From contig CM048552.1 in assembly GCA_026413225.1 (NCBI GenBank), positions 25,409,001 to 25,473,000 of the forward strand: DNA of 64,000 bases, given 5' to 3'. Every line of letters starts with the position of its first letter. The stretch's first letter is position 1. Origin of the DNA: Otis tarda (Eukaryota > Chordata > Aves > Otidiformes > Otididae). The notes beneath the pieces were generated by a model. That model was not told where the DNA came from. It searched no databases and worked only from the letters and a program-made list of their open reading frames with translations. Below are positions 24,605 through 61,746 of the stretch, piece after piece. The position numbers were made by a program, and so were the translations under genes.

Positions 24605-24728
24605 GTTTTAATGAAAGATATTGCCACTCCCATACCAGCAGAAGAGGTGAAGAAAGTGGTTAGAAAATGTCTGGAGAAGGCTGCGTTGATCAATTACACT
24701 CGACTTACAGAATATGCCAAAATAGAAG
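24605..24728 (+). CDS. CADPS2: CADPS2 exon [17 protein letters not shown]... (124 nt)
   Basis: The exon starts in phase 0 after GGCACAG and reads [19 protein letters not shown], then [20 protein letters not shown] and I-E. It ends with a single G in phase 1 at the donor GAAG|GTTAGT. The [12 protein letters not shown] and [18 protein letters not shown] wording is characteristic of CADPS2. The single-G end can join directly to 38716 (giving E-E-T-M-N-Q) or to the 18-nt microexon proposed at 27269. Confidence 0.95.
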
Positions 24729-26799: not shown

Positions 26800-27268
26800 T
26801 TTTAGCCAATTCTTTGAATATTTCTTCAGTTAACATTATATCAGTCAGTCAAAATGAAACTGTTGCATGGTATCATCAGCTATAGACCAATAGTAACTAC
26901 CTAAAAAGTAGAAATGCAAAGAAGACTCTAACAAAAATAATATTCTTATGGTCTTACTTTCTTATATTCTTTTACTGTTATTTATGTTTTAAATAATAAA
27001 TGCAGACTCAGCCAGTAGCCCGAAATATAGACTATATAGGACTAGTAAATATAAATATACTACCTAAAAACAGGTACAGTTCTCCCTCAGCTGACAAAAC
27101 CTATCACTTATGTGAGCTGATTGTCAGGATTCTCACTGCTATGCTCAAGATTTTAAGAATATTTTAATTCTTTATTTGGTATTTATTCTTCTCTAATTGA
27201 ATTAAAATAGTTGTACTTCTGTAATGATGTTTTTTTTCTCTTTTTTTTTGTTGTTTCGTATTTAACAG

Positions 27269-27286
27269 CAGCAGAAAAGGACTCAG
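27269..27286 (+). CDS. CADPS2: candidate cassette microexon A-A-E-K-D-S (18 nt)
   Basis: Inside the 14-kb intron, a long T-rich tract (27231-27263) precedes TTTAACAG, followed by 18 nt and then CAG|GTGATT. Spliced between 24605-24728 and 38716-38819, it keeps phase 1 on both sides. The joint reads K-I-E-A-A-E-K-D-S-E-T-M-N-Q instead of K-I-E-E-T-M-N-Q. The paralogue CADPS, as I recall it, has K-D-A-E at the same place, which supports a real exon. The acceptor is a tandem CAGCAG, so a 15-nt form (A-E-K-D-S) is also possible. The donor is weak at +5, as expected for a regulated cassette. This is an inference and there is no transcript evidence here. Confidence 0.55.
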
Positions 27287-27751
27287 GTGATTACTATTTG
27301 TGTGCATGTCTGCATGTATTATAGATGTCTGTTGTGTTGTGTCTGTTGTTTTATTATTTTTGTTGATTTCAGCAATATCAAGATATCAAACAAAACGTGT
27401 GCAAACATTAAAATTAATTTTGATGTCGTATAGTCCATGCATTCTTCATTTACACTGATACTTAGCTATGATGTGGATATTTATTAGCAATTTAGATAAT
27501 TGTGTATTTTGGAGTATCATGCAACTGTAGTTTCTATGAAGGAGGTGTAACTAAGTGATGCAGAAAAGTTTGGCTGTTAAATTCAAGATCAGTTTGGGTA
27601 TTTAGAGAAATGTGATTTCAGAGTCATCAGCAAAAATGGTATCTGTTTCTTAATGGGTCTGCTGGATTTATTGATGAAGAAACTGATTTTGTAAAGCTGG
27701 TTTTACGTTTCTCTGATATGGCTTTGTTTAGTGATATGTTTATTTTTCTAG

Positions 27752-28444
27752 TTACAGATGAAGGTTGGGAGGATGGTAGTTCTTTGTGTTCCTAATTTCA
27801 TGAAGCCGATATGGTGTATATTCTCCAATAGTGCAGAGAGTGCTTGTATCCCAGTCTTTAAAAGTGATCATAAAAAGAGCGTAGCTGAAGTAGCATTTGT
27901 GGCTGAGTAGTATTGACTGCATAGAAGTATGCAGGATTCTGCATATATATATTATGAAATAGATGTGCACACTACTTTGTCTTATCTTTTTTAAAGATGT
28001 ACATACAGACTCAATGGAAACTTGATTATAATGCTGTGTGGGGTTTCCACAAATACTATCAACCACGGTTGTGGAAAGGGGCATTGAGTTGGAAGTATTC
28101 TCAGGATTAAATAATTTTGCATCTGGAAAGATAGACTGGACTGGTGTGATGACTACAAAAGTTGCATGAAAGTAGTTGAAAATGCAGCTCCTTGCCAGTG
28201 AGGGTCTTGAAGGGAGAAAGATGGTCCAGTTTTGGAGGAACATCTTGTTTAGCCAGTAAACAAGCAAAAAAACCACTAGCAAATTATAAGAACTACTTTT
28301 TTTAAAGTCTGTGTTCAAAACTGAAGATTCAAAAAATTCCATTGGTTCCCAAAACTTCCACTGATTTTCATTTGAAAGCTTTAAATGCCCTGGAAACAGA
28401 AGAGGTCTGTTTGGAATTGTTAAAAAAGAGAGCAGATGATGCAC
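27752..28444 (-). other. 230-codon antisense open frame, unrecognised
   Basis: This is the longest uninterrupted ATG-to-stop frame in the window, intronic and antisense to CADPS2. The product is hydrophobic and S/F/Y/I-rich, with no signal peptide, no zinc or RING cysteine pattern and no RT motif that I can see. Composition follows the AT-rich intron. I think it is a chance frame or the trace of an unrecognised repeat, not a gene. Confidence 0.25.
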
Positions 28445-31400
28445 GGGTGGTATGGGTATTCATGCCACAGCCTGTTAGGATGAGTTGTTATGAATAGATG
28501 ATCTCCTGATCCTCTCTGATCAACAGGGAGAGGTTCCTTAAGCAGGTGATTCAGAGAACTTGGAGGCTTCTTCAACAATTTCTCTGAGAAAGGACCTATC
28601 TCACACCATCAAAAACAAATGCACCCTAAGACAGTTCCCCTACTAGGTAAGATACCTAAAGGTAGATAGCACAAATATTCCACTTAGTATTTTTACACAT
28701 GTAGATATTGAAGAAAATATCTCTTCAAATTAGAAATTTGGAAAAAAAAAATAAAATTAATTTGAGAAATGCGAAAAATAATTTTAGAGTTTGTGTCCTT
28801 TGACCTCTGCACTCCAAAACCTCAACTGTACACTTTTGTATCATGTGTATCACCTCAAGTACAAATCTTCCTTGTGCCACATGCTTGTTATTCTTGCTTT
28901 TTCTTGGGCTCATTATGTCAGAAATATAGACTCTTACACACAGATGTCATATAGATACAAGCACAGGGTGAAAAAAAAAAAAAGTGTACATGATTTCAGT
29001 CATTTTACATTAAGTTTATGCATGCTTTGAAAGAAACTATTGCCGTGTTCTTGAGACAGGATAGCAAAGCTGTCCCTTACATGACCTGGCAAATAACTGT
29101 ATTAGAAAATAAATGAGAGGAAAGCCTATCACATACAGTGAATAAATGGAAATTCACTGGGTGAGGTAGGTGAAGCTAGGGGTTTATAGGCTGTGTTTAT
29201 AATTTAATTGTGTAATTAAATTCTGCTTCTGACTAAAAATGCATCTGAAAATTTATCAGACAACTCAGAAAAATTAGTTTTATGGAAAAAAGTAAACAGA
29301 CTGTGTTTCACCAGAACCCATTTCTCTGATGCAAAAAATGAAGCAGCTGAAAGGAATCCCAATAAAATTATATTTTAGCCTGGCTAAAATCCTGCTCCTG
29401 TTGGTGTCACTAGCTAAACTCCTACAGATTTTGTCATGAGCTTGATGGATGTTACGCTAAGCCCTAATGTCATATATTGCATTATTGTAGAAAATAAGGA
29501 AAACCTATTTCTTGATAACTATTATTTACCCTTTAACCTGGGCACTAGATACTGTATAGAGAATCTTGAATTGCAGGAGTGTCCTTGTTAGGTAATACAG
29601 AGGTGAACATGCAAATTCTTTTTGTTGCAAGAATCCTTTTTCAGTGTGGTTGCCAGGTTCCCAGGTCTATTCCCCAAGTGCTCTCATTTTCACAGTCTCA
29701 ATTGAACAAGACTGAATGCTTTCCCAGAAGACAGTGGTTACTTTCTTAATGGCAGACACAGTGGTATAAGCAGCACTTGCATCAACAGGATTTGTTTGCA
29801 GTCAGAATGACATTTTATTTAGCACTCCCATGTCATTGTACTATTATGAATATAGAACAGCTTTTTTTTCAATAAAAATTAATTTGCAATGACAATTATA
29901 CAGGGTTCAGCATGTCATTCCTTACGACATGTTCAGCTGAAATTCTCATAGAGAGGCTAATCTGTTCAGTCAGTGTAATTGCCATTATGAGAAGAACAGC
30001 AGCAAACCTACTGTTATAATTTTGAACTATGTCTAAAGACTCTCATATAATGCCCTTGTGCCTTGCAGCAAGGGTTTATAATTTGTGAAGGAGATGATCA
30101 CAGCATCAATATGTGAAAATCTCTTTTTAAGTATAAACCATTTTCATTTCGGCACTTGCTGCCTTTGAGACTTTGCCACCTGAAAGTACTTTTTAGATCA
30201 TTTTGTGTATGGTGAATTTTCCTGTCTTATTCAGTATTTAACTTGAGTTAGCTCTTCCTGTAGAAAATGTTGAACACAACTGGACCTGCTAGATGCTGAG
30301 GCCAGAGACAAATAACATTTTTCAGATGCATTTTGTATAGCTTCCAATTAACAGCTTATAAAAATTTGTGTGCCCTCTAACCTGTTTTCTCCCCTTAAAA
30401 AAAAGGTGGCCATCCTTATACAGAATTCATATTTTTCACTTATATTTTGTACACATCTGTTAACACACACAGAGAGTAGTGAAATACTTTCTCTCTTTCT
30501 TCTTAGAAGAATTTATTTCAAAGCTGAATGGCTGAGGAGTAATGGACTCGGCTAGTGCTGCTGTCATTGCCGAAGAGAAGTGATAGAAATGCACATGTAA
30601 TACATTTTTCAGCACAAGGGCATTACCTTGCTGTGGAGAAATAAAGGGACCGGGTTAGGGATTAAGGTGGTAAATAGCTGTGAAGGGAACAGGGCAGGAT
30701 CTGTCGTTGTCTGTAGATATTAATTTCTGAGGCAATAGACAGACTGTAAAGATTTGAATTATTAGGTAATTGTCTTTTAACTCATTATTTTTAAAAGTCT
30801 GTAGTAACTGGATATACAGGGCTCCTTCTGCCAATCATTTCCAATTAAAGGAATGAGAATGAATTTGATTAAAATTGGAGCAAATAGTTACTGTGTAGTG
30901 TGCAATTGCTCAAAGACAAATCACAGTTGTCATCCCAATATTTCTTTCTGTCAGACAGGCTGCCAAAGGCTGAACGACTGTTAACTCCATACAATAGAAG
31001 GTCAGGAGCAACTCAACAGTTTGCTGGTTTTTAAAGGACATTGCTCGTTAACGTACTCATTACATACAAGTTTCTAAAGGAAGGGTAGTATGTAAATGCC
31101 CTCAAGGCTCAGAAGGATCTATCTGACTTAAAAAGAAGAACACTACAAACATTATTGAAATTGAGAAGGCAAGTGGAGAGAGTCATTGTACCTGGAGAGG
31201 ACTTGATTAAAGCTCTCCATGCATGTTCATTTCACTGAACAAACAAAAACGAATGAGTTGCACAGCGGCATAGCACCTTCTTGGTCTCTGTGCAACTAAA
31301 CAGAAAGAAGAGGATATGGGCAAATATCCCTAATTTCAATTTTGGAGCAGAGGTCTGGGAAAGAACCACTGGAGTGTTAAGTCTACGTCCTGATACTCCT

Positions 31401-36182: not shown

Positions 36183-38715
36183 CAAAATTCATCACTTCAG
36201 CACAGATGACCAGAACTGCATTTCCTCAGTGCCTTGCTCAATTGAATTAATACCTCCCTGAGACCATGTTTCTCTTTGTCATGATCTTGTCACAGTGGTG
36301 GTTCAGGATAATCTCACAGTTAGCTAGGAAATCTATGGTCTTTCTCCTGTTTTCCCTACTGATAAAGATGTCTGTTCAATAGCCATTGTTAGGCTATCTT
36401 GAGCTTATTACAGATATCGAGTAAGTGAACTTAATGCAAAAATGCAACAACAGATTCAATATAATTATTAGAATTACTTTCTTATTAATTTAGAGGAGCC
36501 CTTCTAGGATGCAATTCTTGAGTAGCTTACAGTTTATTTAGTTTCGTTAGGAATTAATGCAATTATGAATGCAATTACTTTTTTTTACTTGGTTAGTGGC
36601 AAGGTCTATGAAGATCAAGCTGAATTTGTAATAAAATGAGTTGTTTATGCCAAAATCGGACATGCCAGTCATACTCTGTATTAATATCACTGGTTTATTC
36701 CTAAGACTAAGGGAGACAAGGAGGAGACTGACCACTAGAGGAAGGAGCAATTTCAGTCCAGAATAAGCATAGAAACCACTGTTTAAGTCTGAATCCAATA
36801 GTAGTCTTTGTACTATAACCTAAATAATAAAGGCTGGACCAATCCTTTCTAATCTCACTTCACAGAATACATTAATATAGGTGTGGTTGTATTCATAGAA
36901 TTGTACCACAGTATCAAATTTGCAAATTCGGTACAGTGTTAATGATCTTGACATCGCGAATGTAGTTTTGTGTCCTGGTGTGTGTTTTGTGCTTGGTCCG
37001 TGTTCGTACAGTAACTCTTTCTTGTGTTAGATTATGATTTTGGAAGTCATAGTATTTCAACATGTCTGCTTATGTGGTCTATTTTAATAAGATTTGAAAA
37101 AAAAAAATCAGTTGCTTCAGTAACTACTTTACCTGCTTTGTTCTTTGCATGAAAACAATATGTTTTTGTAGTCACCTTTAAGTAGATATTTGCTGGAGGT
37201 TCAAATCCAATTTTCTTCAAAAATTGCATTAAAGCTATATATTTCATCAAGGTACTGTGCATCAGTGTGTTAGTGCTGAAGAACTGGACAAGGTCACCTG
37301 CCTCTAAGACGTCTGAAATGTTGTTTTGACTTGCCAGAAATGTTAAGTGTTAAAAAATATTTAGTGCATGGAGTTTGATATTCTTACTGACACCAAGGAG
37401 ATTATGCAAGTTTTTTAATTAATCTGCTAATGATCTTTGTCATGATGAAGGCATAAAGTGGGAGATAAATGACTGCAAAATTTTCTGTGTATGAAGATGC
37501 ATATTCATGTGATTTGCTGTTCACATGATCCAGGAACATGCACAGAAAATAAGAAAATAGGATTCCTGAGACCCTCACTCACCTTGTATTATCAGCTTCG
37601 TAAGCCCACTGCAAACCTGGTTAATGTGACCATACTTTATATATTGTTATATTGTACAAAATCATTTCTATCCCGTGGCTTACGCTTAGGAACAAGAGCT
37701 GTTATGTAAACAAGCTCAGACAGGCAATACTGAAGTTATTCCTAATGATACAAATTACGTAGTTGGACAAATTAATTTGTTGGACTGATTAAACTATGAT
37801 TGTAAAAAATTTCAGTTGGTTTCTTCCCTTATATCCCATGCCTCTTCCTGGGATCTAGTCCTATGAATTTTTTTAATTGAAAACTACACTGAGTTTAATT
37901 GCCCTGGAAGAATTTCAGTTACATTTGGTTTATCTTTGTTGTTTGCTTTCTTTTTAAAGTCTGCTGTGTAGAATGAGTGATCCTCATGTCATTTGTAACT
38001 TTTGCATTTGTCCTTGTTTTCTTTTATGTGGAGTTTTTAGTAGGCTTGTGTCAATTCTGTTATAACATCTTTAAGTGCTGCATTTCACTATGGTACTGAA
38101 AAGAATGCAGATTCACCCTTACTGCTGAAGAGCAGGTAGAAAATTAGTTATTTGAATAATTAGTTATTAGAAATTAGTTGTTTGAATAATTACTGTGGTT
38201 TGTACTTTTCTTATTTTTAAATACACTTAAAATGTAGTGTCTTATTTAGATGAAACATTTGGAATTTTTGACTGCTGTAAAAAGCATGAATCTTGCTGAT
38301 GACAGTAATGAGTCATCTAGCGAGAATGGCATTGTACTGATGGTACTATAACAGAAACGGTCTCTGCTGTCTGCTGTCTTTGTGTATCTGACCTTGAAGA
38401 GAATTGGAACTTGCTTGTTGCAGAAGTTGAGCATCTAATACATTGATGCACCTGTTCGTTCTCGCATATTAAATCAGATAATGTTTATAATGATCAGTGA
38501 CTCTTTTATGCATTAAATATTTTATCTCTCTAGTGATCTGGACATTCAGCTGCATTTACCTGTATTAACTGACTGTCCTTACCATGTGAAACTGCTTATA
38601 CTTCAGAAAATTGTAACTTTGCACCGTTCCCATTCCTTTCTGACATCGTTTTCTCTTGCTATTGAAACTTACTTGTAACTAAAGCAATTTTGGTTTGCAT
38701 TTTATATTCGCATAG

Positions 38716-38819
38716 AGACCATGAACCAAGCAACACCTGCTAGAAAACTGGAAGAGGTTCTTCACCTTGCAGAACTCTGTATCGAAGTATTGCAGCAAAA
38801 TGAAGAACATCATTCAGAG
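38716..38819 (+). CDS. CADPS2: CADPS2 exon (E)[13 protein letters not shown]... (104 nt)
   Basis: Two bases (AG) complete the glutamate split from the upstream exon, then the frame reads [20 protein letters not shown], then [14 protein letters not shown]. It ends in phase 0 at GAG|GTGAGG. The acceptor is [18 protein letters not shown] followed by AFAWW in the next exon is a hallmark of CAPS proteins, and [12 protein letters not shown] is the CADPS2 version. It encodes helices of the MUN/MHD1 region implicated in SNARE and syntaxin contact and vesicle priming. Confidence 0.95.
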
Positions 38820-45600: not shown

Positions 45601-48600
45601 TTTTTTTCTGATGCAGCGTATAACTTCTCATGAAATAAAAGAGAGGAGGAAAGAGGAGTCCTGACTGAAGCTTCACAGTTATATTATAAAGACCTCCATT
45701 TTTAATCACTTTAAGCTTCCATTTTTTTCTGACTTTATTCCACAACAATTAAGAGTTCATCAGTGAGTTCAACAGTCACTGCTTTCCTGTTGTGTTAAGT
45801 CTAACTGAAGAACTACTTAAAAAAAAAACAGATGGAGGAGTGTGATCTTCATATCCTCCAAAATATTTCTGGTTTTCTGACAAGAGTTAACAAATAACAA
45901 AAAGTTATTTTAAAAAATTTTATTTACTGTGGAGATAAGTAATAGAATGCAATTGCTGTAGTTTTTCAAAATGTAAAGGTTTAAAAAAATATTGTAGCTG
46001 CTTTTATATTATACATTTTAATGATCTCCAAAGTTTGTATTGTTCATACACAATTACGCCTGACTGTGTAAAGCTTTGCAGATTGTACAGAGACAACAGT
46101 ACCCAATATCTCTCTATGGTAGCGAAATTATTTTTTCCAGAATTGGTTATTCATAGGAGGAAGGTGGACATGGTTATCCCAGGATTGTATCTTATTTTCT
46201 GTAATTACCATGTTACTTTTTGCCCACAAAGCCTATGAATTCTGTTATGAAGAGGTCTGCTCTAGAGAGCGATTTACTTTCTGAAGTTGTTTAATTATTC
46301 AGAGTAAACAGTTTTTTAATGCCTCAAGACAGACATGTATAAATTCCTCTTTAAGAGGTGTCAGAGATATCTTTTAGTGGCATGTGCCTAGTTACATAGT
46401 TTTGTTTTAGATTTCTAAATATGCCAGGAAATCCAAGTGGTGCCTTCCCAAGAATCCTATGGAGAGCGGGATAATTGTAGACTGTCTGCCAAAGTGCTAA
46501 TTTTGTCAGTGGAAAAGAGACTCGTGTTAACCTGTGTTGTTCTTCCTTCCCTTTGATCCTGGAGAAGCTCTTCAGGACAGCGTAACATGCTGACTCCAGG
46601 ATAACTCCTGAGCTGTCCTTGTATAAGTAAAAACAAAGCAAGCCACACAGCTTCTCATGTACACAAGCACAGCAGATTCTTTTCCTGCTGTTAGAGGAGA
46701 AACCTCATTCCAGCGCTGCATTACTAGACTGTACTTTTTATCTCTGGTGTTTTCTTGTTGTATTGTAATATATTTCAGCTACCTAATATGTAAAAGTTGA
46801 ATAACTTTCATCTTCAACTTCAGTGTTTCGAGAATTTTTTTTATTGGGAGTCTGCAATCTGGTTTTCATTAATATTGTATATGCATTGGTTTGCTCTGGT
46901 ATAGGCTTTCATTTTGTTGTTGTTTGCCTGAATATGAGCTGGCTCATTTGAAGAGGGTGTGGGGTGTCTATATTGACAAGACAATGGAGAATTAAGCTAC
47001 GTAGCTTTAAAGACAAGTGGTAGTTGAGGGATTTAAAGTGTGGCATTTCCTCAAGGATCTCATTTCCCATCTGCTTTGATGTACTGGTGGTACCTCTTGG
47101 CAAGATCAGTTCTAATCGTAGGGTAGAGTGCCCTGACTCCAATGATGATACTCAGCTATATCACTTACCCCTCTGCTCTGAGCGCTTTCCCTGCCCTGCA
47201 GTAATCCTTGACAGGGATCTCCAGATAGGTAAATCAGAGCTACCATGTCCTCAAGCCCTGGGAAAACAAAATGCCCGCCAAGTTGTTGATCCGAGCCAGC
47301 ACTCTTGTGTGTGTGCCCAAATACAGAGGGATCTCTGTGGAGGTGCAGTTGGATTAAGAGTCTTGGCATCATTTTGGAAAGTTTCACTTCCCTGCAGGAC
47401 TGCTGTCAGAATGTTAGGAAAATAATTTAGCTTTTTAAGTTGAACAGCTTTTATTGCCTGTGACTTCTTTAAATTTCATTCCAACTTCGGAATAACAAGA
47501 GTTGCCCTCCTGCTCATGAGACTTTATTACTGTAATTCCCAGAGTAGAGCTTGTAGCGGAGCATTTCTGTGGTGTGCTCAGAAAACAGTAAACCACAAGC
47601 TCATCCCTTCATGTAACTGTGATTTCCTGATTAATTCCAGTCCTGCACTGATTCGCTATAAAGCAGCAATATTGACTTGACACAGTTGTATTCTTGTTGT
47701 TTTTAAGCTCAAAGTTGCCTTGAAAAATCAGCCTGATTGATAGGCAGTTTGATACCAGCCACCTTTTGTTTCTCAAAGGCAATGTTCATCAGCTGTTCAC
47801 TCTGCAACCTTTGTGTTAATACCCAAATCATTCTCAGTTGTTATTATTGCTGGTCACAGATGCTGCAGTTTTAAGATGTATAAATATAGAAAAAATAACA
47901 CTGTTTTGAGTGCCTGATATACAAATAATTGTGCCAGAACTGGCTAGTTAACAAGTAGTTCTATGAGCAGTGTAAATAATGGAGCATGTTTGTAATGGAC
48001 TCATAGGTGCTCTCAAGGGTGGATTCTCAAGAGTTTAATAAGAGATGAGCCTATGCCGCTGCCTTTTTCTCAGTGGAAATCTCTGCCTGCTACTTAGCTG
48101 CCTGTTTTCATGAAACCATGTATCTGAGATTTTCCCCCCTGTGTGTAATATGGTTGAAATTAGCTAAAAGTTTTGAAATTCTTAGCAAGAGAGGATGGCA
48201 AAACCTGATCACATCAGTCTTATCTCCTTACATAGAAGTGATTGATATATAATCTCCTATTACTCTACAAGGATATCTTACTCGCAAGAAGATAGTTCTT
48301 GGCTTCAGATAATTGCATTTAAAGAGGAAAAAAGAGGAAAAAAAATGTTGTCCAGACATGCAGCAACAAAGGCACTTCCTTGCATTGTAAGTAGCAATAG
48401 AAAACTGGAACTTGATGACACATTTTCCCCATAGTCTTCATCTCTCCCAAGTTCAGTTTGTGGTGGACATCATTCAGGAATGGAAGACAAAGGAGTTCCT
48501 GGAAGTTATAGAAATTATTTTTGTATATTGTACGTGGAGGTGTACTGGTGGTGGAACAAAGGGGAATTGTGATCTTATGATATGATTTCCAGTGTTTTGA

Positions 48601-50385: not shown

Positions 50386-50505
50386 GAGCATCACCAACAG
50401 TCTTCCTAATGTAGCTCTTCCAAAAGTTCCAAGTTTGCCTCTTAATCTTCCACAAATACCTAGCTTTACTACACCAACCTGGATGACTTCTTTATATGAC
50501 TCCAC
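50386..50505 (+). CDS. CADPS2: CADPS2 exon, Pro/Leu-rich linker (120 nt)
   Basis: One base completes the lysine, then the exon reads [20 protein letters not shown], then [19 protein letters not shown]. It ends with AC of a split threonine at AC|GTGTGT. The linker repeats an LP-x-(V/I) pattern: LPNV, LPKV, LPLNL, LPQIP. In CAPS proteins this proline-rich linker separates two helical parts of the MUN region. CADPS has a longer version with an extra NLPNV-type repeat, and this shorter form is CADPS2-like. The donor has a weak +4/+5. Confidence 0.95.
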
Positions 50506-61731: not shown

Positions 61732-61746
61732 TTTGCCAGTCAATGG
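61732..61746 (+). CDS. CADPS2: CADPS2 microexon F-A-S-Q-W (15 nt)
   Basis: Fifteen bases lie between GACATGAACCAG and the consensus donor GTAAGT. A strong pyrimidine tract (61698-61716) precedes the acceptor. The microexon is phase 0 on both sides and follows ...DGGQE. In the paralogue CADPS, as I recall it, the same position carries an optional F-A-K-M-W insert before HQYHSKID. The position, size and F-A-x-x-W pattern make the exon very likely and probably alternatively spliced, with neural enrichment inferred from microexon biology. Skipping it leaves the frame intact. Confidence 0.85.

Follow-up and report, generated by a model that had tools for sequence, protein, structure and literature searches.

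A probable RBFOX-promoted cassette microexon in the MUN region of CADPS2

We conclude that an 18-nt segment at 27269-27286 on the + strand of the 64,000-nt window (the whole stretch of DNA analysed here) is probably a genuine cassette microexon in the part of CADPS2 that encodes the MUN region, likely promoted by RBFOX proteins and probably neuronal. The strongest signal for it is a pair of RBFOX motifs immediately downstream, which was absent from the initial annotation; together with a comparison to exon 22 of the same gene, this pair supports the microexon reading of that annotation beyond the argument on which it was first proposed. CADPS2 has a role in neurotrophin release from secretory vesicles and has been studied in relation to autism (available text of PMC1853102). 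Should the reading be correct, switching six residues, most of them charged or small, in or out by cell type beside a SNARE-binding region would be a simple and testable means of tuning release. The gene is interesting but the candidate is of a familiar kind, as MUN-family microexons have already been reported, and it would extend the pattern of neuron regulation described for them (PMC12287369, available part).

CADPS2 lies on the + strand, where a tblastn search with a CADPS query placed its exons at positions 1692 to 60739. Two more, exon 22 and one of 15 nt at 61732, came from scanning for similarity to presumed segments. The latter (61732-61746, TTTGCCAGTCAATGG, FASQW) is followed by a GTAAGT donor and may, we assume, correspond to exon 25 of mouse CAPS2 (FGSQW). 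Exon 22 occupies 50386-50505, measures 120 nt and is proline-rich (7 prolines in 40 residues), and since mouse CAPS2 shows a 120-bp difference that encodes a proline-rich stretch with 8 prolines in 40 (PMC1853102, in the available part), we anchored the mouse numbering at this exon. Hand translation of the primers for exons 21 and 23 in the same source gives DLMES and FVFDLHW, and the exons on either side of exon 22 in the window contain both peptides. Provided that the exons are the same as in mouse, a count back from exon 22 would make the neighbours of the candidate exon 18 (24605-24728, 124 nt, VLMKDIATP...TEYAKIE, identified by translation and by tblastn with 76% identity to the CADPS query) and exon 19 (38716-38819, 104 nt, coding for (E)...NEEHHSE, likewise located by tblastn with that query).

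The candidate itself reads CAGCAGAAAAGGACTCAG, with a left flank ending in TTTAACAG and a right flank beginning GTGATT. Exon 18 closes in phase 1 with a G and exon 19 opens with AG, which places phase 1 at both candidate junctions, and splicing the segment in yields KIE-AAEKDS-ETMNQ. Sequence and translation thus agree with the earlier description of an open, AG/GT-bounded 18-nt segment that fits this exon pair. The segment has the attributes of a microexon, being within 30 nt, divisible by three, flanked by AG and GT and in frame without a stop. A CAGCAG tandem (AACAG/CAG/CAG) offers three acceptors, at 27269, 27272 and 27275, for versions of 18, 15 and 12 nt, every one of them open and in frame. 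Two other roles for the site were ruled out: it is no poison exon, as it is divisible by three and has no stop, and CAG/GTGATT is no zero-length recursive site, as a pyrimidine tract is missing directly before it.

The best surviving alternative, which we nevertheless regard as unlikely, is that the segment is an accidental AG...GT pairing in a T-rich intron and is never spliced. Scored with position-weight tables, the donor reaches 4.7 bits and the acceptor 1.3 bits, both within the spread of values for the CADPS2 exons that the window contains (0.8 to 9.0 bits for 10 donors and -1.4 to 10.6 bits for 9 acceptors). With its ends excluded, the intron of 13,987 nt contains 243 segments of 3-30 nt, in multiples of three, that lie between AG and GT and are in frame without a stop. 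The candidate ranks second among them by summed splice score, and none of the other 242 attains both of its site scores. At the candidate's thresholds no second candidate appeared in the nine introns scanned (15/16 to 23/24, with 14/15 and 24/25 outside the scan). Consistent with an accident, however, another segment of 15 nt (36866-36880) in the same intron has the top summed score, and when the intron was shuffled 1000 times with its dinucleotides preserved, 183 of the shuffles produced an equally good in-frame candidate (22 of them one of 18 nt), so that the splice sites alone are not decisive. The segment at 36866-36880 encodes EYINI and has no TGCATG in the 100 nt downstream. Against an accident, sites of this quality were followed within 100 nt by one TGCATG or more in 8 of 1000 shuffles and by two or more in none of 1000, a comparison whose thresholds were taken from the candidate itself and whose TGCATG criterion was picked after the candidate had been seen. 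The T-tract upstream and a paralogue-like peptide in register, the latter judged against a presumed reference, also speak against chance; both are taken up below.

The two TGCATG motifs lie at 27303-27308 and 27311-27316 on the + strand and start 17 and 25 nt into the downstream intron. The window contains 23 TGCATG on this strand, and the tightest pair (8 nt apart) is that of the candidate, followed by a pair 40 nt apart at +39 and +79 of exon 22 (50544 and 50584). Among the window's 100-nt stretches, 0.22% have two TGCATG, and of 12 other exon ends examined only that of exon 22 has two within 100 nt, while none of the remaining 11 has even one. Exon 22 (CAPS2b) is alternative in mouse and was seen in brain only when eight tissues were compared (PMC1853102 and PMC12436618, in the parts available); it resembles the candidate in belonging to the MUN region of the same gene and in its downstream motif pair, and differs in being 120 nt long, proline-rich and at a different junction. 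Among alternative micro-exons TGCATG is the sole highly overrepresented 6-mer of the downstream flanks (PMC4317164, available text), and the positions at +17 and +25 fall in the immediate downstream intron, as in micro-exons regulated by RBFOX and PTBP1.

Upstream, the long T-tract to which the initial annotation had pointed is real: the 46 nt at 27219-27264 (-50 to -5) contain 31 T and 35 pyrimidines, and as many T are found in 0.09% of the intron's 46-mers, the tract's own overlapping ones counted. This flank is thus pyrimidine-rich, with 10 T in 16 positions at -20 to -5 and 21 in 30 at -50 to -21, the highest of 12 upstream flanks measured; T-richness beyond -20 is typical of alternative micro-exons (PMC4317164, available text) and of those regulated by RBFOX and PTBP1. 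Exon 17, which is not known to be alternative, is next highest beyond -20 and nearly as T-rich (13/16 and 20/30), so we treat the tract as supporting rather than diagnostic. Elements TCTT and CTCT at -30 and -31 are presumably of PTBP type, and a TGT-rich downstream stretch at 27326-27349 we take to be CELF-like. No TGC (UGC) occurs in the last 30 nt upstream, the nearest being at -127; with UGC missing near the acceptor, SRRM4-type control is not supported by the sequence.

The paralogue CADPS (CAPS-1) presumably reads KIE-ENQKDA-ENVGRL at the equivalent position, six residues in exact register with AAEKDS and sharing its KD, and ENQKDA may be a separate 18-nt exon there. The initial annotation had likened K-D-S-E of the insert to K-D-A-E of CADPS; the likeness agrees with the sequence that we presume for CADPS, of which the structure match covers ENVGRL onward only. 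That match, to the solved CAPS-1 chain 6a68, is the sole strong one and begins at ENVGRL, just past the insert position; two further structure matches are weak and at chance level, and no paper came up when the literature was searched for these peptides. Against the presumed ENQKDA, AAEKDS has a BLOSUM62 score of 11. Of the 10,141 phase-1 18-mers in the intron that lack a stop, 51 reach that score; among the 24 candidates of 18 nt AAEKDS comes first, ahead of a runner-up with 6. The presumed CADPS sequence gains some credit because other presumed segments located both exon 22 and the FASQW exon. Against that credit, two further presumed CADPS segments are without a counterpart: an alternative segment of 23 residues at the 18/19 junction (at best 21 of 122 in the intron) and a 7-residue microexon for the 19/20 junction (at best 12 of 41, not convincing). 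Likewise, a 9-mer encoding GLK between AG and GT was found nowhere in the 19/20 intron, and its sole case in the window (47029-47037, in the 20/21 intron) has no pyrimidine tract.

The Pfam MUN profile gives 56.6 bits without the insert and 63.8 bits with the 18-nt form (a gain of 7.2), and 64.1 and 63.0 bits with the 15-nt and 12-nt forms. Three permutations of the same composition reach 63.7, 64.2 and 64.3 bits (gains of 7.1 to 7.7), and with three inserts of unrelated sequence the score is 59.3, 60.2 and 61.8 bits. Because the permutations score alike, what the profile rewards is the length and composition of the insert rather than its sequence, and we rejected its gain as evidence of homology.

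A resemblance to the paralogue would also be expected of a decayed relic, that is, an ancestral microexon shared with CADPS that is still recognisable but is no longer spliced in the CADPS2 of this lineage. We consider this improbable, more so than an accidental site: the mouse CAPS2 cDNA study, which describes 31 exons and six isoforms and used a P6 cerebellum library, makes no mention of an exon at the 18/19 junction in parts 1 and 2 of its 4 (PMC1853102), a silence that counts against the candidate and fits such a loss, but the segment retains an open frame, its AG and GT and the pair of RBFOX motifs, all intact. The published text on CADPS2 and microexons, to the extent available and apart from supplements, likewise describes no 18-nt CADPS2 exon at this junction. 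The search was one of literature rather than of annotation databases, and the candidate may well be annotated already. For human CADPS2 a cluster of three mutually exclusive exons is annotated, at a position not given in the available text (PMC6071210).

Microexons are encoded by mammalian Unc13a-c, Cadps and Cadps2 alike, and neuron-type regulation is described both in worm and in mouse, there for a Cadps exon of 9 nt (GLK) (EMBO Rep 2025, PMC12287369, available part). The small in-frame exons of unc-13, unc-31 and Cadps in that report come from the same gene family as the candidate, although the mouse Cadps exon is 9 nt rather than 18 nt long. Its unc-31 primers translate to IRVTEF and LSDHSEI, and their best matches in the protein of exons 18-21, the stretch compared, are TRLTEY (exon 18) and LAEHAEK (exon 20); the matches span only six to seven residues, and for LSDHSEI two further sites score 15 and 12. 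Judged from these matches, the unc-31 amplicon probably spans the candidate's 18/19 junction and the next one. A Cadps microexon is also among the direct RBFOX targets in work on Huntington mice, where its inclusion falls in R6/1 animals and the drop is attenuated by an RBFOX1 transgene (PMC13067610, available part). It resembles the candidate as an RBFOX-linked microexon, here in the paralogue, and differs in its junction, the primers (LQQNEE and FAVDMDA) pointing to what correspond to exons 19 and 20 and hence to the junction after 18/19. The exon 3 cassette of C. elegans unc-31 (PMC12084633, available part) was rejected as a counterpart, being a different exon that lies farther upstream.

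The motifs and these relatives together suggest that use of the candidate is neuron-specific. That the microexon is real but constitutive or non-neuronal is the least likely of the alternatives and very improbable, for although its splice sites match the quality of other exons and its regulators are ones that we infer, downstream TGCATG and T-richness beyond -20 typify alternative, not constitutive, micro-exons (PMC4317164, available text) and the motif pair is shared with an exon that is brain-only in mouse. For the cassette microexon that we favour, we propose that in RBFOX-rich cells (neurons and perhaps endocrine cells) RBFOX would bind both downstream UGCAUG motifs and so promote use of the CAG/GTGATT donor. 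In other cells PTBP1 on the long U/UC tract, together with the tiny size of the exon, would lead to skipping, with exon 18 joined straight to exon 19. Inclusion would add the six residues AAEKDS at the KIE/ETMNQ junction, or five or four with the inner tandem acceptors, just before helices that match the SNARE-binding DAMH region of CAPS-1. The charged linker would thereby be lengthened toward the length presumed for CADPS, and vesicle priming may be tuned. Although speculative, and on balance doubtful, it is tempting to think that CADPS2 and CADPS have in common an 18-nt microexon of ancient origin, driven by RBFOX and placed where MUN and DAMH meet, which was kept in CADPS2 here and was lost or left unannotated in mammalian CADPS2, and whose three-way acceptor sets an insert of four, five or six residues.

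A search for vertebrate relatives gave 104 pattern matches in prokaryote contigs and 10 in viral contigs, none of them confirmed by tblastn. A repeat origin of the candidate was considered and set aside on the following checks. There is no tandem array near the candidate, and one exact 16-base CR1-like pattern is absent, which says little about the organism. Queried against the window, the 270-nt neighbourhood of the candidate returned itself and six short matches of 16-22 nt. Just downstream, on the - strand at 27752-28459, lies an open frame with no Pfam match at E 0.1 that runs for 235 codons from stop to stop.
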